Part shown: piece after piece, positions 6,830-14,631 of the stretch
How the letters are laid out: every line of letters begins with the position of its first letter
Numbering within the stretch: position 1 is the stretch's first letter
Source of the DNA: an uncultured Alphaproteobacteria bacterium
GTDB lineage: Bacteria; Pseudomonadota; Alphaproteobacteria; Rs-D84
NCBI GenBank assembly: GCA_905234185.1
Contig: CAJOGC010000004.1
Location: forward strand, 1-64,000
DNA length: 64,000 bases
Direction of reading: 5' to 3'
The notes under the pieces: generated by a model
Seen by the model: the letters and a program-made list of their open reading frames with translations, nothing else
The model's database searches: none
Told to the model about the DNA's origin: nothing
Program-made: the position numbers and the translations under genes

Positions 6830-6879
6830 AACCCTCTCACCCCGACCATAAAATTCAAATCGGCCGAATGGCCGATTTT
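6830..6879. repeat. 50-bp direct repeat copy 2 (orphan tRNA-Pro 3' end plus terminator)
   Basis: Identical to 6638-6687; lacks the 5' part of the tRNA. Confidence 0.95.
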
Positions 6880-6959
6880 TTGTTTTTTATCCGCTTGAAC
6901 CAAATGGGGTAAGGTGGTAAAATATCTTGCGATAGCAATCTATCAGAGGAGGGGGCATC

Positions 6960-7607
6960 ATGGTAAACACAAGAAAAACGACAACAAAACAAAAAACAGC
7001 AAGCCCTGGGCGGGGTCGACGGGTAAAATCGGCCCAGGTTAATCCCGTTGTTGTGTCGATTAACCGTATGTATCGTAAGGGGGCGCCCATACTGGTTGCT
7101 GAATCAGCATTGTTTATGGTGGCAGCGGTTGTTTTGTTTATTAAACCGGTGCTGGTGTTAACAATATTTACATATATTATCGGTGTCGCGCTTTTGTTGT
7201 TCGGGCTTTATCGTATGATGTCTGGATTTGTGGCAACAAATGATAGTGGTGGCGGCGTTGATGTTGTATTTGGATTGATCAGCATTGTGTTGGGGTTGCT
7301 TTTCGTGGTATATCCATCCGGATCATTGGTCAGTGTCGCATACATATTCGTGATATTGTTTTTCTTTAAGGCATTGCGAATTCTTATATTTGCGATTAAT
7401 CTGGCACGTGCGCGATTTGGACACTATCTGATTACATTGGCTGTGGCAATTGTATTGTTTGGATTGGCGATTGCGTTATTCTGGTTCCCGTTGGGGACAT
7501 TTATTGCGATGACATACTATTTGGCGGTATTGTTGGTGGTCTATGCGGTGGCCGATATATATATGTTTACGGAATTAAACAAATTGCGGCAACTGGTCAC
7601 AGATTGA
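6960..7607 (+). CDS. Multi-TM HdeD/DUF308-like membrane protein
   Basis: Paired hydrophobic helices typical of DUF308; basic N-terminus. Confidence 0.65.
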   Translation: MVNTRKTTTKQKTASPGRGRRVKSAQVNPVVVSINRMYRKGAPILVAESALFMVAAVVLFIKPVLVLTIFTYIIGVALLLFGLYRMMSGFVATNDSGGGVDVVFGLISIVLGLLFVVYPSGSLVSVAYIFVILFFFKALRILIFAINLARARFGHYLITLAVAIVLFGLAIALFWFPLGTFIAMTYYLAVLLVVYAVADIYMFTELNKLRQLVTD

Positions 7608-7642: not shown

Positions 7643-7773
7643 TGGCGCGCCCTGCAGGATTCCCTCACTCGGCACAAAATTGTGCCGGCTGCGGGGCAAC
7701 CGTAACGCTTTTGCTGTGCTGACGCTTGCAAAATCTACTTGTTGTCGAACCTGCGACCTGCGGATTAGAAATC
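7643..7773. repeat. Left attachment site: partial tRNA-Arg(TCT) copy split by an 82-bp insertion
   Basis: tggcgcgccctgcaggattc (7643-7662) and tcgaacctgcgacctgcggattagaaatc (7745-7773) match the 3' half of tRNA-Arg at 20952-21000. Confidence 0.85.
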
Positions 7774-8229
7774 GTCTGAACCAAAACCGATTGTTCGCCC
7801 AATTCCCGCCCCTTTCCGCCATTTTACCCACCCTCCAACCACCACCCTATGTAGCAAATATGTAACATTTTTTAATGATTCGTTTGGTGTTTTGTATCAA
7901 AACAACAATAAAATACAAAAAACAGTTTGTTTTTACGTGTTTTTTATGTCCTGAACACCGCAGAAAACGGGGATTCCCAAAATGCAAGAAAAAAAGCCAC
8001 TTTTTTGTTAAAAATCGTGCTGAAAACACTCAAAAAATACTGTATATTGTGTGTATGGATGAATTGAGGCACAATATGTTGAAAAACATCCTGGGGATGT
8101 GGTTATCCCCAAGAACGGATACCCAAAATAATAAGGGCGACCAACTCATCCCTTATTATAGCAAAATCCACGGTTAATCGCAACCAGTTTGTTAATTGGG
8201 TATGGTTGCATGAACCAAAAGGCTAAAAT

Positions 8230-8472
8230 ATGTCAAAACTAGATGACATTTGGCAAAAAGGTTCTGCAGTACGTGGTAAGAATCCAGACACTTGGCGTAA
8301 GGATTCTGAAGGCAATCTTATACGTCGTGGTTCGTACGGAACTTGTGGCGAATATGGTTGGCACGTGGACCACATACACCCGAAGGCACTGGGCGGTTCG
8401 GATAATATCCGAAATTTGCAGCCACTGCATTGGGAAGAGAACCTTGAAAAGGGTAAAAAATATCCTTATTAA
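8230..8472 (+). CDS. HNH endonuclease
   Basis: CGEYGWHVDHIHPKALGGSDNIRNLQPLHWEEN HNH motif. Confidence 0.85.
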   Translation: MSKLDDIWQKGSAVRGKNPDTWRKDSEGNLIRRGSYGTCGEYGWHVDHIHPKALGGSDNIRNLQPLHWEENLEKGKKYPY

Positions 8473-8523: not shown

Positions 8524-11460
8524 TTAAAACAATTTACCCTCGGCACGGGTACGGGTCAAACGCGACATTTCCAAAATTTCTTTGATAGATGCATTTTGGT
8601 CGTGCATTGTTTCAAAGTTGGTTTGTGCCAATAATACGTACCGCCACTCTGCATCCATACGTTCAGACGCTGGCAATTCATTGATTTTATTTATCCAATC
8701 CAAAGCACCGATTTCTTTTGCCTGAGTGTCGGGGTTATTTGCTCTATCATTGCCCTTTGTTTCAACGATATAAATCTTATCTTTGATTTGAACAATGAAG
8801 TCAGGATAATATGTGCCAAGCATTCCGTCCTGGCGCAGATAACGGAAACGTGCGAATGTATGTTTGTGTTCGCTGATTTTGATAATCTTATCCACTTCCG
8901 GATCAATATCACAGGCTTCTAAAAACGCACGTTCTAAGCCACCTTTGTTTGATGGGAAAAATGTTTTTGTATAGATTGATTTGCGAATATCCAAAGCAAA
9001 ATTTTCACGTCCAACCAATTTATCCACTTCCGAGAACCAATGTTTTTCAACTTCGGCTTCGTGCACATTTAATTGATTGTGCATTTCGTAGATAGCTTTG
9101 GATAATTCTGTCATTGTGTGTTGAATGATTGTCGCCTTGGACAATATCAGCACGCGCCAGTTTCCATCAACCATCGGGTCAAATTCCTGGTTAAATAAAC
9201 GCGTTCTTATGTACCTGTCGATAGCAGAAATCAACAAAGTTTGATTTATCTGCATCAAAGGCATTTCCGTTTTGTGACCATTGGATGCGACTTTAGCAAA
9301 GTTTGTCGTAATAGCATTTAGCATCTTTTGCAAATATTCGTTATACGATTGTGCAGTAAAGATATCGCTGCTGACTTTATATTCGCCAAATTGGGTTTTA
9401 ACCTGCATTTCGCGACCAATGAAACGGTCTGCGTTATCATTTGGCACCATAGCCTTTAATTGTTTCAGATCAATATCAAACGGGCGCATTTTATCAACAG
9501 ATATTTCTGTGCCCGCCAAAGTTTCTTCTTTGTCTTTGATAATGTGTGGCCAGAACATATCGTAATCTTTGTAATTATCTTTCAATTCTGCAACAACCAT
9601 ACCGCCAAGTGGTTTTGGACCTTTGCCTGGTTCTTTGGCTGTGACGACCATTTCTTTACCCAATTCATCATAGAATGTTTTGAATGCCGGATGCTCTACA
9701 ACGAACAGAGTATCAAGATAGTTGACCGGTGCGGTCTTCAAATCATAAATGTTATGACGATTTTCTGCTTTTACATCATCATATTCGCGACCACGCCACA
9801 TTAAACGTAAACCGCGACCAAGAACTTGTTCCAACAAAATTGGTGCCTGTGATGAACGCAATGGAACAATTACGCAGATGTTATTTACATCGAATCCTTC
9901 GCGCAACATCATAACACTGACAACAACTTTTGGATGGGTTTGTTTATCCAAAGTGAATAATTTTTGTTTAAGGTCTAACCATTCGTCTTCCTTTAATTCA
10001 CCCTTCTTGTTGGAATCGATACGCATTATGTCTTCTTCGGAAAAGCCATCTTCTTTGGCCAAAAAATCACAAACAAACGGCGACACATCTGTATCTTCGC
10101 AGATAACCATCATCTTTGGGTGTTTATTTGGATCGTGTGCAACGAAATCTTTTTCCAGAATCTTTAAACGTTCCAATCCGGCACGCAACATTAAACGTTG
10201 ACCAGAAGACAACCCCATAACTTTACCGGCAGAATTACGGACAGATTTAAAATCAATGTCTTCGTTTGGCATAGATGCCCATTCTTTGCGTTCATCCAAT
10301 ACAAACGTTTTTACAAAACCTGCACGCATAGCTGTCGTTAATTCAAAATTGACGATAATATGTGGAAAATAATGCTTGGTTTCATTTTTACCACCACCAG
10401 TCACAGAATATGGTGTTGCAGAAAAGTCGATTTGAATATAATTTGCACCTTTGCCAGATGATATTGTATTCAGTGACTTTTGCCATTCTACTTCTTCAAC
10501 AATGCCATAGTTTTTATTTTCATGAATATGGTGTGCTTCATCATTAAATACACAGATATCCGGCAGTGAAGACAAGTGTTCCAACAATCCACCACGCAAT
10601 AATTTGTTATCCAGTACATCCAATGCATTACCTGCGGCAACACCAGGTGTCACAGGCAAAACATCAGTGGCGATTTCACGGGTGTTATTCAAATCAACAC
10701 CGTTTAATTCTGTCTCAGATTCTGGTTCTTCTTCGTCATCAACCAACGCGTGCCAGTTTGTAATAGCAATCAAACCGTCACCGGTAGTTTTACTTGTGAT
10801 TTCTGTTTTATCGGCCACAGAATTTTGGACAAACGAATATATGTCTTGGCGGTATTTTTCTGGCAAGAACAAATCTTCGTTGCTTTTGATATCAGATGTA
10901 TTGAAATCACGTTTGCCAATGGTTGTTTCTTTACCGCGAAACGCATCCAACAATCTTTCATAAACAATCAAGCCCGGCGCAATCAACAAAAAGTTTTTTG
11001 TAAATTTTATTGGCGATTTTGACGATGCGTATTTAGCATTCAAATATTGCCATATCAACAACGCATTTAATACCCATGTTTTACCGGTACCTGTTGCCAT
11101 TTTTACGCAGTATTTTGGGAAATTATATTTTTGATTGGCAATAACATTTATGAAATCGCCATCGGTTGGAACCTCACTTTGTTCGGCAACCGCAGAATAC
11201 ATATCAGGAACAGATTTAGATTGCAGCACTTCATGGACATATATTGCATTCAAAATTGCTTGTTTTTGCCCTATGTGGAAATTTCTATCACGAATATCGG
11301 TAAACGATGGGTCAAACCAATAACGCAACAAATCAGCCGTGATTGGTGTGACCGATTGCAAGAAACGACCAGATTCCCAATCAGCATTAACCAATTTTGT
11401 TAAACTTTCTGCAAACTTTAATGGAATATCACGAGTTCCTGTATTCTTTGGTGCTGTCAT
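8524..11460 (-). CDS. res: Type III restriction enzyme, Res subunit (helicase plus PD-(D/E)XK nuclease)
   Basis: MATGTGKTWV Walker A, NDEAHH Walker B, C-terminal YYPDFIVQIKDKIYIVETKG. Confidence 0.93.
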   Translation of the reverse strand: MTAPKNTGTRDIPLKFAESLTKLVNADWESGRFLQSVTPITADLLRYWFDPSFTDIRDRNFHIGQKQAILNAIYVHEVLQSKSVPDMYSAVAEQSEVPTDGDFINVIANQKYNFPKYCVKMATGTGKTWVLNALLIWQYLNAKYASSKSPIKFTKNFLLIAPGLIVYERLLDAFRGKETTIGKRDFNTSDIKSNEDLFLPEKYRQDIYSFVQNSVADKTEITSKTTGDGLIAITNWHALVDDEEEPESETELNGVDLNNTREIATDVLPVTPGVAAGNALDVLDNKLLRGGLLEHLSSLPDICVFNDEAHHIHENKNYGIVEEVEWQKSLNTISSGKGANYIQIDFSATPYSVTGGGKNETKHYFPHIIVNFELTTAMRAGFVKTFVLDERKEWASMPNEDIDFKSVRNSAGKVMGLSSGQRLMLRAGLERLKILEKDFVAHDPNKHPKMMVICEDTDVSPFVCDFLAKEDGFSEEDIMRIDSNKKGELKEDEWLDLKQKLFTLDKQTHPKVVVSVMMLREGFDVNNICVIVPLRSSQAPILLEQVLGRGLRLMWRGREYDDVKAENRHNIYDLKTAPVNYLDTLFVVEHPAFKTFYDELGKEMVVTAKEPGKGPKPLGGMVVAELKDNYKDYDMFWPHIIKDKEETLAGTEISVDKMRPFDIDLKQLKAMVPNDNADRFIGREMQVKTQFGEYKVSSDIFTAQSYNEYLQKMLNAITTNFAKVASNGHKTEMPLMQINQTLLISAIDRYIRTRLFNQEFDPMVDGNWRVLILSKATIIQHTMTELSKAIYEMHNQLNVHEAEVEKHWFSEVDKLVGRENFALDIRKSIYTKTFFPSNKGGLERAFLEACDIDPEVDKIIKISEHKHTFARFRYLRQDGMLGTYYPDFIVQIKDKIYIVETKGNDRANNPDTQAKEIGALDWINKINELPASERMDAEWRYVLLAQTNFETMHDQNASIKEILEMSRLTRTRAEGKLF

Positions 11461-11461
11461 A

Positions 11462-11626
11462 TTATTTTCCTTTTTTGGCGGGTTTTAACACATCTTTTGG
11501 TACATCTGGAGAATTGTAAACCCGCGCTGGTTTCAAAATGCCTTTTTGCACATTTGGTGAGTCCATTGTTGGTTTCAATACGGCTTTTGGGACATTCGGC
11601 GATTCACACATAACTTTATATTTCAT
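11462..11626 (-). CDS. 54-aa microprotein with three tandem SP[N/D]V[P/Q]KxxLKP repeats, between res and the membrane protein gene
   Basis: Hand translation: MKYKVMCESPNVPKAVLKPTMDSPNVQKGILKPARVYNSPDVPKDVLKPAKKGK; GGAGG SD 5 nt upstream of ATG; overlaps the upstream gene stop by 11 nt. Confidence 0.8.
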   Translation of the reverse strand: MKYKVMCESPNVPKAVLKPTMDSPNVQKGILKPARVYNSPDVPKDVLKPAKKGK

Positions 11627-12005
11627 ATTGTCCTCCACAGGTTAAATATATGATGATTAACAAATATCCGATAATCATGCAGATAAAGTTCCAATTTACT
11701 GATTTATTAAATTTTTCTTGAATTTCTCCATATTTTTCGGCGTTTTTCTCATTTGCTAATGCCGCATCACATGATTTCTTACCATATATAGCACCAATAA
11801 TATGTGCGACAACCACAGCTACCGCGAAGATGTTAACCGCTACGAATAAAAATTTTCCCCAAAAACCAAATTTTAACACTTTATCTACATACCCCAAAGC
11901 CAATGGAATAGAACCAAGTGCTGCCGTTAAGGTTAATTTATCGATGAAATTTTGAATATCTTTATAGTATTCTCGTAATATTTTTTCTCTTTCTTTGTTT
12001 GTCAT
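11616..12005 (-). CDS. Small multi-TM protein inside the Type III R-M operon
   Basis: 129 aa with about three hydrophobic segments; starts 3 nt after the mod stop with GGAGGTG SD. Confidence 0.75.
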   Translation of the reverse strand: MTNKEREKILREYYKDIQNFIDKLTLTAALGSIPLALGYVDKVLKFGFWGKFLFVAVNIFAVAVVVAHIIGAIYGKKSCDAALANEKNAEKYGEIQEKFNKSVNWNFICMIIGYLLIIIYLTCGGQYEI

Positions 12006-12008
12006 GAT

Positions 12009-13907
12009 CTACACCTCCACAACTGCCATGGATTCAAAACCAAAAACATCAACTGCTTTGACACAGATTTTGCGTTTGTGGTCCACTTTTGGAACAACAA
12101 TGTGTGCATCATGAATTACACGCAACGGGTCGTCATCGTTGTTTGTGTTTTCACGATAATCTTGCCACACGGAACGGAAAGTCTGACCGTCATAATCTGG
12201 ATCAATGGACCAGTATTCAATTAAATCCAATGGGTTGTCGGCCATAACTTGTTGAACAACCGCCTTTGATTTGTCGTCCAATGGTAAATTGTCGGGCGAC
12301 AACAAAACATAATTATCCAATTCGATGTTCAATGTTTCTTTGCCGTCTTCATTTGCCGGACTTACCGTTGGCTTTTTGATGGTCAAATATTGCAACGAAT
12401 TAAAGCGGATTTTGTTACCATCGACCAAGTCCTTATAATCTTTCTTGCGTAACAAGTCTAACAAATCTGGTGGAATAACCAGCACTTCACATTCGGATTT
12501 ATTCATAACGGATAATTTATCACCAATATCAAAACTGAAATTCCAGCCCAATATAATAACCTTTTTCCATCCACCCATGAATGAGTCACGCAATTCCATT
12601 GCGCGTTTAATGGTGTTTGCGTTGGTCACTTTGTTTGGACTATCAACCACCACCAATGTAGATTCATCACGTATATGTCCAACGTTTACCGGTGCATCTT
12701 CGGAATCAAATGGTAATGCACCATAAAGCCGCATAACAACACGTGCCAAATCAGAAACCCGTTTGTATTGTTTGTCGGACAGGAATGCTTCACGTGAATA
12801 GTCGCCAATTGAATGATAAAGGAATGGTTTGCAATCTGGAATATCTATCAACCGTTTGCGCATAATCATTGTTGACGGTTTGCCCAAATCGGAAGTAATC
12901 CAACGGCGACCCAATTTTTCTGCAACCGCAGCAGTCGTGCCAGAACCACCAAAGAAGTCGGCCACGATAGCCCCCTCGTTTGACGATGCTTTAATTATTC
13001 GTTCCAATAATTTTTCTGGCTTTTGAGTGCCATAATCAACGCGTTCACTGGAACTTCGTCCGACCATATCTATATCCCATACATCTTTACAATTTACAAG
13101 CGTATACCAACCAATTTCATCTTCAAACTCTTCCACACCTTTAAAATGATACGGCTTAAAGCCACGGTTGTATGATTTTTCTTTTAACACATTAAAAATA
13201 GCTTTGGTTTCATCTTTTTTATAGAAGAATATTGTATCGTGTTTTCGTGCAAAAGTGCTTTGACCGACCCCTCCAGATTTATAACTCCAGACTATTTCAT
13301 TAACAAAATTATTTTTTCCGAAGATATCATCTAAAATCACTTTCAGATAATGTCCTGCATGCCAATCACAATGAACATAAATAGACCCCTGTTCAGACAA
13401 AAGTTCTTTCATTAGAGCAAGTCGGGGATATAACATTCTTAAATAACTGATAGTGCCATCCGCCCAGGTGTCTGAATATGCAAATTGTTCCAATACTGTT
13501 GGTTTTTGTTCGACGTTGCCGTTTGGTAAGGTTATTTTTGTCCTGTAATCGGCTTTGGAATCAAACGGCGGGTCGATGTAAATCAAATCTATCTTACCGC
13601 GCATAGATGGCAGGCCTGTTTCCGGATCACCATTCAATAATGCCTGCATCGCAAACAAATTATCACCATGAATCAAACGATTGAACCATCCTTCGGTTTC
13701 ACAATATTCTGCGCTGGTATTATCTGGGGGACAACATTTACGTATATTTCCTGCAAACAAACCACCATCTTTTGGTGATGGCAAAACGTATTCATTTGTT
13801 TGTAATAACAATTTATTATCAGATTGTGCACGTTGCAATATTTTTTCAACTTCTTTTTTACCGTGCGTAACAACATCTGGTAGCATTTCAATCAATGATT
13901 TTGGCAT
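12009..13907 (-). CDS. mod: Type III DNA methyltransferase, Mod subunit (beta-class N6-adenine)
   Basis: [16 protein letters not shown] (motif IV) preceding [12 protein letters not shown] (motif I). Confidence 0.93.
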
Positions 13908-14013: not shown

Positions 14014-14631
14014 TCACATTTGGGGCAAAGAAGCCTCCATTTTTCCGCCTATATATCGATTTAACGTTCTTGGGCTGACATTTAACAGTTTGGAAACTTT
14101 GCGTTTTGATACACCTGTAAATAACAATTCTTTGGCATATTCACATTTGCCATCCATTTTATGATGGGAATTTTTGCTGCCTAATTGTCGTCCCAATTTT
14201 ATGCCAGCATCTTTTCGGCGACATAATGCTTCTTTGGTGCGCTGGGCAATCATATCGCGTTCTATTTCTGCGGCCATGCCAAACGCAAAGGCCAAAACTT
14301 TACTTTGAATCGAATTATCCAATGTATAGCCATCTTTCACGCTGTAAACACGCACATCACGTTTTAATAAAAATTCCAATATACGAAACAGCATAAATAA
14401 TCGCCGTCCAAAACGCGACAATTCCGATATAATAACAACATCGCCAGGAACAACCGATTGCATCAGCAACCCCAATGCACGCTGTTCCGGTTCTTTGGTG
14501 CCGGAAATGCCAGCGTCCTCAATGTATTTATCAATGCATAAACCCAATGCGCTGGCTTTGGATTCAATGCCCAGTTTTTGATTTTCACAGTCCTGTTTGT
14601 CGGTAGAAACCCGAATATAACCATATATCAC
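14014..14631 (-). CDS. Serine recombinase (resolvase/invertase family)
   Basis: YGYIRVSTDKQDCENQ catalytic Ser region, SELSRFGRR, C-terminal HTH. Confidence 0.93.
   Translation of the reverse strand: MIYGYIRVSTDKQDCENQKLGIESKASALGLCIDKYIEDAGISGTKEPEQRALGLLMQSVVPGDVVIISELSRFGRRLFMLFRILEFLLKRDVRVYSVKDGYTLDNSIQSKVLAFAFGMAAEIERDMIAQRTKEALCRRKDAGIKLGRQLGSKNSHHKMDGKCEYAKELLFTGVSKRKVSKLLNVSPRTLNRYIGGKMEASLPQM

Follow-up and report, generated by a model that had tools for sequence, protein, structure and literature searches.

The locus studied here raises the question of what a microprotein of 54 aa, built of a repeated motif, does between the mod and res genes of a type III-like restriction operon, and with which of the neighbouring products it works. 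The window, that is, the whole stretch of 64,000 nucleotides that was analysed, comes from an uncultured Alphaproteobacteria bacterium, whose genome is denoted G000 below, and its relatives are searched genome-wide in the genus (156 genomes), the class and the phylum. Read on the minus strand, the operon has the order serine recombinase, mod, membrane gene, microprotein and res. A preliminary description of this DNA had proposed a selected repeat peptide that could dock on Mod, Res or nucleic acid. Our analysis retains the conserved repeat-motif peptide but does not favour a partnership with Mod or Res.

The microprotein gene occupies 11462..11626 on the minus strand, with its ATG at 11626 and its stop ending at 11462. 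The translation, MKYKVMCE-SPNVPKAVLKP-TMD-SPNVQKGILKP-ARVYN-SPDVPKDVLKP-AKKGK, agrees exactly with the one quoted before, to which we add the strand that was absent there, and it contains three copies of the motif S-P-[ND]-V-[PQ]-K-x-[VI]-L-K-P at residues 9-19, 23-33 and 39-49. The gene has a strong Shine-Dalgarno sequence of its own, GGAGG, located 6 nt upstream of the ATG and, with its spacer, covering 11627..11637 (minus strand) within the end of the membrane gene. Between the repeat copies, the codons differ mainly at third positions, and most synonymous-site bases are different. Tandem Repeats Finder reports no DNA tandem repeat at the locus, which rules out a tandem repeat artefact, and the periodicity is therefore seen at the protein level. 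The internal-repeat score of 47 is matched by 2 of 3000 shuffles of the peptide's own composition, while for the homologues described below (G034, G027 and G553) the numbers of shuffles reaching the homologue score are 0 of 3000, 2 and 18, respectively. On the whole, the peptide is predicted to be unstructured (pTM 0.13) and it is basic, with a net charge of +8 in the window and +3 to +10 across the four members of the genus.

Within the 156 genus genomes, a profile search finds only four credible matches to the microprotein, all behind the membrane gene (E 3e-31 to 5e-10). Besides the window copy, they are the homologue in G034, which is 94% identical and has three repeats, that in G553, MKKQIVMDSPDLHKAVHKPLESCIVYNSPELPQSILKDHKKGK, with two repeats, and that in G027, MTFKVLCESPSIPRAIKAVQDSRSIPKTIRAKVGIKKRKK, with two degenerate repeats. 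As the preliminary description pointed out, a frame of no importance should carry stops or frameshifts in homologous loci; we looked for both and found none in G034, G553 and G027, so that this objection falls away. Over the 38 aligned codons of G000 and G553, the genes differ 14, 6 and 24 times at codon positions 1, 2 and 3 (chi-square p = 0.004), and between G000 and G034 dN is 0.024 and dS 0.121, with only six changed codons. The kept frame, the position bias and the dN below dS bear out the protein-level selection that had been suggested. At its extreme C-terminus the peptide is not conserved for protein-level reasons alone, because the last codons (KKGK*) overlap the ribosome-binding site of res, AAAAAAGGAA. 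Taken together, the comparisons support a real peptide of repeated linear motifs that is conserved at the protein level.

The constant upstream neighbour of the microprotein is a gene for a small membrane protein of 129 aa (11616..12005, minus strand), recognised by hydropathy and AlphaFold2, and in the window it shares its final 11 nt with the start of the microprotein gene. AlphaFold2 predicts three long helices (pLDDT 75, pTM 0.60). Two segments, 52-70 and 107-125, are clear and strongly hydrophobic, and a third (about 25-45) is above threshold only in the homologues of G553 and G142. Four homologues are convincing, namely those of G034 (96% identical), G553 (59%), G027 (49%) and G142 (about 28%), the last genome belonging to another family of the same class and not to the genus. 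Among the carriers of the pair, the protein has 125-130 aa and is predicted to form three helices. Across the class and phylum, the other membrane matches are weak and partial, most of them with internal stops, and no homologues of the pair are found in phages, plasmids or viral contigs.

Altogether, the pair is present in 4 of the 156 genus genomes, and in each of the four (G000, G034, G553 and G027) the microprotein lies directly behind the membrane gene, the two genes overlapping in G000 and G034 and abutting in G553 and G027, with a ribosome-binding-like sequence in each. Since no other credible copy is found in the 156 genomes by the profile search, the peptide is never seen without the membrane gene. 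Such constant co-occurrence of adjacent genes (4/4 in the genus) is as in toxin-antitoxin pairs; it rests on few and partly related cases, because the searched data hold five membrane-protein loci in all, partly from related MAGs, and the counts are not phylogenetically independent. In G142, a 58-aa serine- and lysine-rich ORF overlaps the stop of the membrane gene (ATGA) and resembles the microprotein only in position and composition; it is kept only as a positional analogue because its match to the peptide profile is no better than those of shuffles. These genomic observations support a partnership of the peptide and the membrane protein.

The pair has no recognisable place in known families. 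Neither protein has a significant match in Pfam, NCBIfam, PHROGs, PADLOC or PDB, or to a solved structure or viral fold, two fold searches give nothing significant for either, and no profile library used recognises them as a toxin, a SLATT protein or a defence effector. Specifically, no known toxin or antitoxin family is matched in Pfam, NCBIfam, PADLOC and PHROGs, and the window membrane protein has no SLATT match in Pfam and NCBIfam; the G142 homologue has a weak one (E 0.031). The G142 protein also has a weak full-length match to phrog_3054, which we discarded, as it led to no real homologues, the sole match in 115 class genomes being a frame with many stops.

The host operon is well recognised. 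The mod gene (12009..13907, minus strand) encodes a beta-class type III-like DNA methyltransferase (PF01555, 2.9e-43; PADLOC MTase_III, 8.4e-85), and in its translation DPPF precedes FFGGSGT, the order of beta-class N6 methyltransferases expected of a type III Mod. The res gene (8524..11460, minus strand) encodes a type III-like restriction subunit with PF04851 (ResIII) above the cut-off (6.6e-13) and PADLOC REase_III at 4.6e-24; we score it as a Res subunit, with helicase C and RE_endonuc matches only below the cut-off, and it partially matches the NF046055 BPTD_3080 family (213 bits, the cut-off being 800). It begins one base past the microprotein stop, and its ribosome-binding region AAAAAAGGAAAATAAT (11461..11479, minus strand) lies in the last microprotein codons and forms the right border of the cassette in the junction comparison. 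Residues about 205-340 of Mod are only about 7-12% identical between G000 and G034 or G543 over some 80 alignment columns, with flanks mostly 90-100% identical, and judging from this alignment the target-recognition domain in the central part has apparently been swapped, next to a Res that is 99% identical. Directly upstream of mod lies the serine recombinase gene (14014..14631, minus strand), which is kept in G034 and G543 (92-98%). Recombinases also adjoin mod in the plasmid relatives from Acetobacter and Sphingomonas, and the serine recombinase could serve to mobilise the operon or to exchange parts of it.

The junction between mod and res can be compared among relatives. This res is found in 9 of the 156 genus genomes (67-99% identical), and the nine junctions hold the pair in three (G000, G034 and G553), another membrane protein in three, and nothing in the remaining three (G543, G051 and G016, with gaps of 17, 3 and 6 nt, respectively). 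The empty junction of G543 accompanies a Res with 99% identity to the window Res, and the gain or loss of the cassette is therefore recent. The other occupants are a protein of 205 aa with one N-terminal transmembrane segment in G552 (L086, about 7703-8320), a winged-helix-like protein with a C-terminal one in G550 (L085), and a protein of 236 aa with three hydrophobic segments in G062 (L045, 6615-7325), the latter with weak SLATT_5/SLATT_6 matches (E 0.02-0.05). Each of the three has a predicted transmembrane segment, and they show no significant mutual similarity. In addition, the junction can be read in nine distant relatives, which lie on plasmids from Alphaproteobacteria and Actinomycetota and on one viral contig (two further plasmid copies are disrupted), and none has an insert between mod and res. 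Over these nine genus operons and nine distant relatives, the pair thus behaves as an embedded cassette, lying between operon genes and absent from sister operons.

Outside this operon, the pair occurs in G027 without mod and res, next to a type I HsdS specificity domain that is truncated (Methylase_S, 5.6e-15). Locus L031 of G027 carries arrays of the palindrome TTCAACCnnnGGTTGAA at 12255-13567 and 6846-7378, with 20 matches (up to 2 mismatches) against 0.12 expected and none in the window; the larger array is just upstream of the membrane-peptide pair. Near the G142 membrane homologue no restriction genes are recognised; adjoining it at 9222-13231 (L043, minus strand) are a subtilase (Peptidase_S8) gene and, upstream, a gene for a 958-aa protein for which Pfam gives nothing above cut-off; the two may be a defence pair. 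From the occurrence in G027 without mod and res and from the empty junctions, it follows that the pair is a separable and swappable accessory cassette, in which the membrane protein is the constant neighbour of the peptide and Mod and Res are not.

The explanation that we propose, with a probability of roughly 45%, is that the microprotein acts as the small partner to the 129-aa membrane protein, and that the two form a membrane cassette between mod and res consisting of a second-line effector and its peptide gate or antitoxin. By 'guilt by embedding', a principle already applied to PrrC, TgvAB and DarTG2, the cassette probably serves as a second-line defence, and in a further step we infer the membrane protein to be the effector and the repeat peptide the gate or antitoxin. 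The membrane protein would act in an abortive-infection-like manner by disturbing the inner membrane. The peptide, which is disordered and positively charged and has two or three motif copies, would dock on it, perhaps with one motif per protomer, and would silence it; a multivalent docking, as was proposed earlier, is plausible onto this protein. Being made directly after the membrane protein, the peptide could keep the two products in step, and infection or loss of restriction may upset the balance and release the membrane protein from silencing. In a wider form of this proposal, the mod/res junction would accept membrane proteins interchangeably, and these would link restriction to the cell membrane; the one seen here would be controlled by a partner of a new kind, a disordered micro-antitoxin whose two or three motif copies engage several protomers; as a whole, this form is distinctly unlikely.

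Another explanation starts from the fact that every occupied slot in the genus encodes a membrane protein. The membrane protein might be an anchor, and the cationic repeats might hold the restriction complex or the incoming DNA at the site of phage-DNA entry. Repeats of the SPKK type are DNA-binding, and the SP-x-x-K/K-P motifs of the basic peptide are similar to them; the HsdS fragment beside the G027 pair also agrees with a tether. However, the mod-res lineage works without the pair (the junction is empty in three of the nine genus operons and in all nine distant relatives), and the G142 homologue has no recognised restriction genes around it. We consider such a tether unlikely. This lysine- and proline-rich, SPKK-like peptide may bind nucleic acid, which is nevertheless not favoured as its partner. 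The two small adjacent genes, one of them encoding a membrane protein, and the swapping of the pair, as in other accessory phage-resistance genes, would also suit superinfection exclusion or another membrane function with the peptide as a structural subunit and not an antitoxin; yet searches of profile libraries and folds give no similarity to any known exclusion protein, and the probability of this alternative is likewise low.

Much the same observations bear on Mod and Res as partners. That the peptide docks on one of them and tunes restriction, the membrane gene being a bystander, agrees with its place in the same operon in three genomes, but the peptide tracks the membrane gene (4/4) and not mod-res: six of the nine genus mod-res operons are without it, including that of G543 beside the 99% identical Res, and it occurs in G027 where mod and res are missing. 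This distribution rules out Mod/Res docking as the leading idea, and we regard it as very unlikely. That the ORF is spurious, its frame kept only through overlap with the end of the membrane gene and the ribosome-binding site of res, is hardly credible, since these overlaps are present but short (11 nt at the start, about 15 nt at the end), whereas across the middle the frame and the repeats are conserved and the third positions diverge, and the microprotein is present in G027 without res downstream.

The proposed membrane cassette has likenesses among known systems. Among the defence modules that lie within restriction operons are PrrC in EcoprrI (reviewed in PMC12707154), TgvAB in a Vibrio type I restriction operon (PMC11411939) and DarTG2 in an EPEC type I restriction operon (PMC12255303). 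As in these, a small accessory cassette lies between the genes of an intact restriction-modification operon, is missing from sister operons and can exist elsewhere. Our case differs from these in its host, a type III mod-res operon, and in its occupants, which are small membrane proteins; moreover, no resemblance to a nuclease, GmrSD or DarTG is seen in either gene of the pair. SLATT and other small transmembrane effectors of bacterial immunity are likewise small helical membrane proteins in defence surroundings; the window protein, however, is without a SLATT match, has three predicted helices, and is accompanied by a repeat peptide of 40-54 aa instead of a nucleotide-signalling enzyme. In PanAT, a membrane toxin is neutralised by a soluble protein antitoxin (PMC10440598), and our pair likewise consists of two small adjacent genes for one membrane and one soluble protein, although the microprotein has no Panacea or other antitoxin domain.

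If the explanation is true, a new two-gene membrane module would be added to the increasing number of defences that lie concealed within others, and a slot in a restriction operon would be identified whose occupants are directly testable. It would also mean that a defence-associated membrane protein can have as its constant companion a gene of fewer than 60 residues, of the kind that may escape annotation pipelines.
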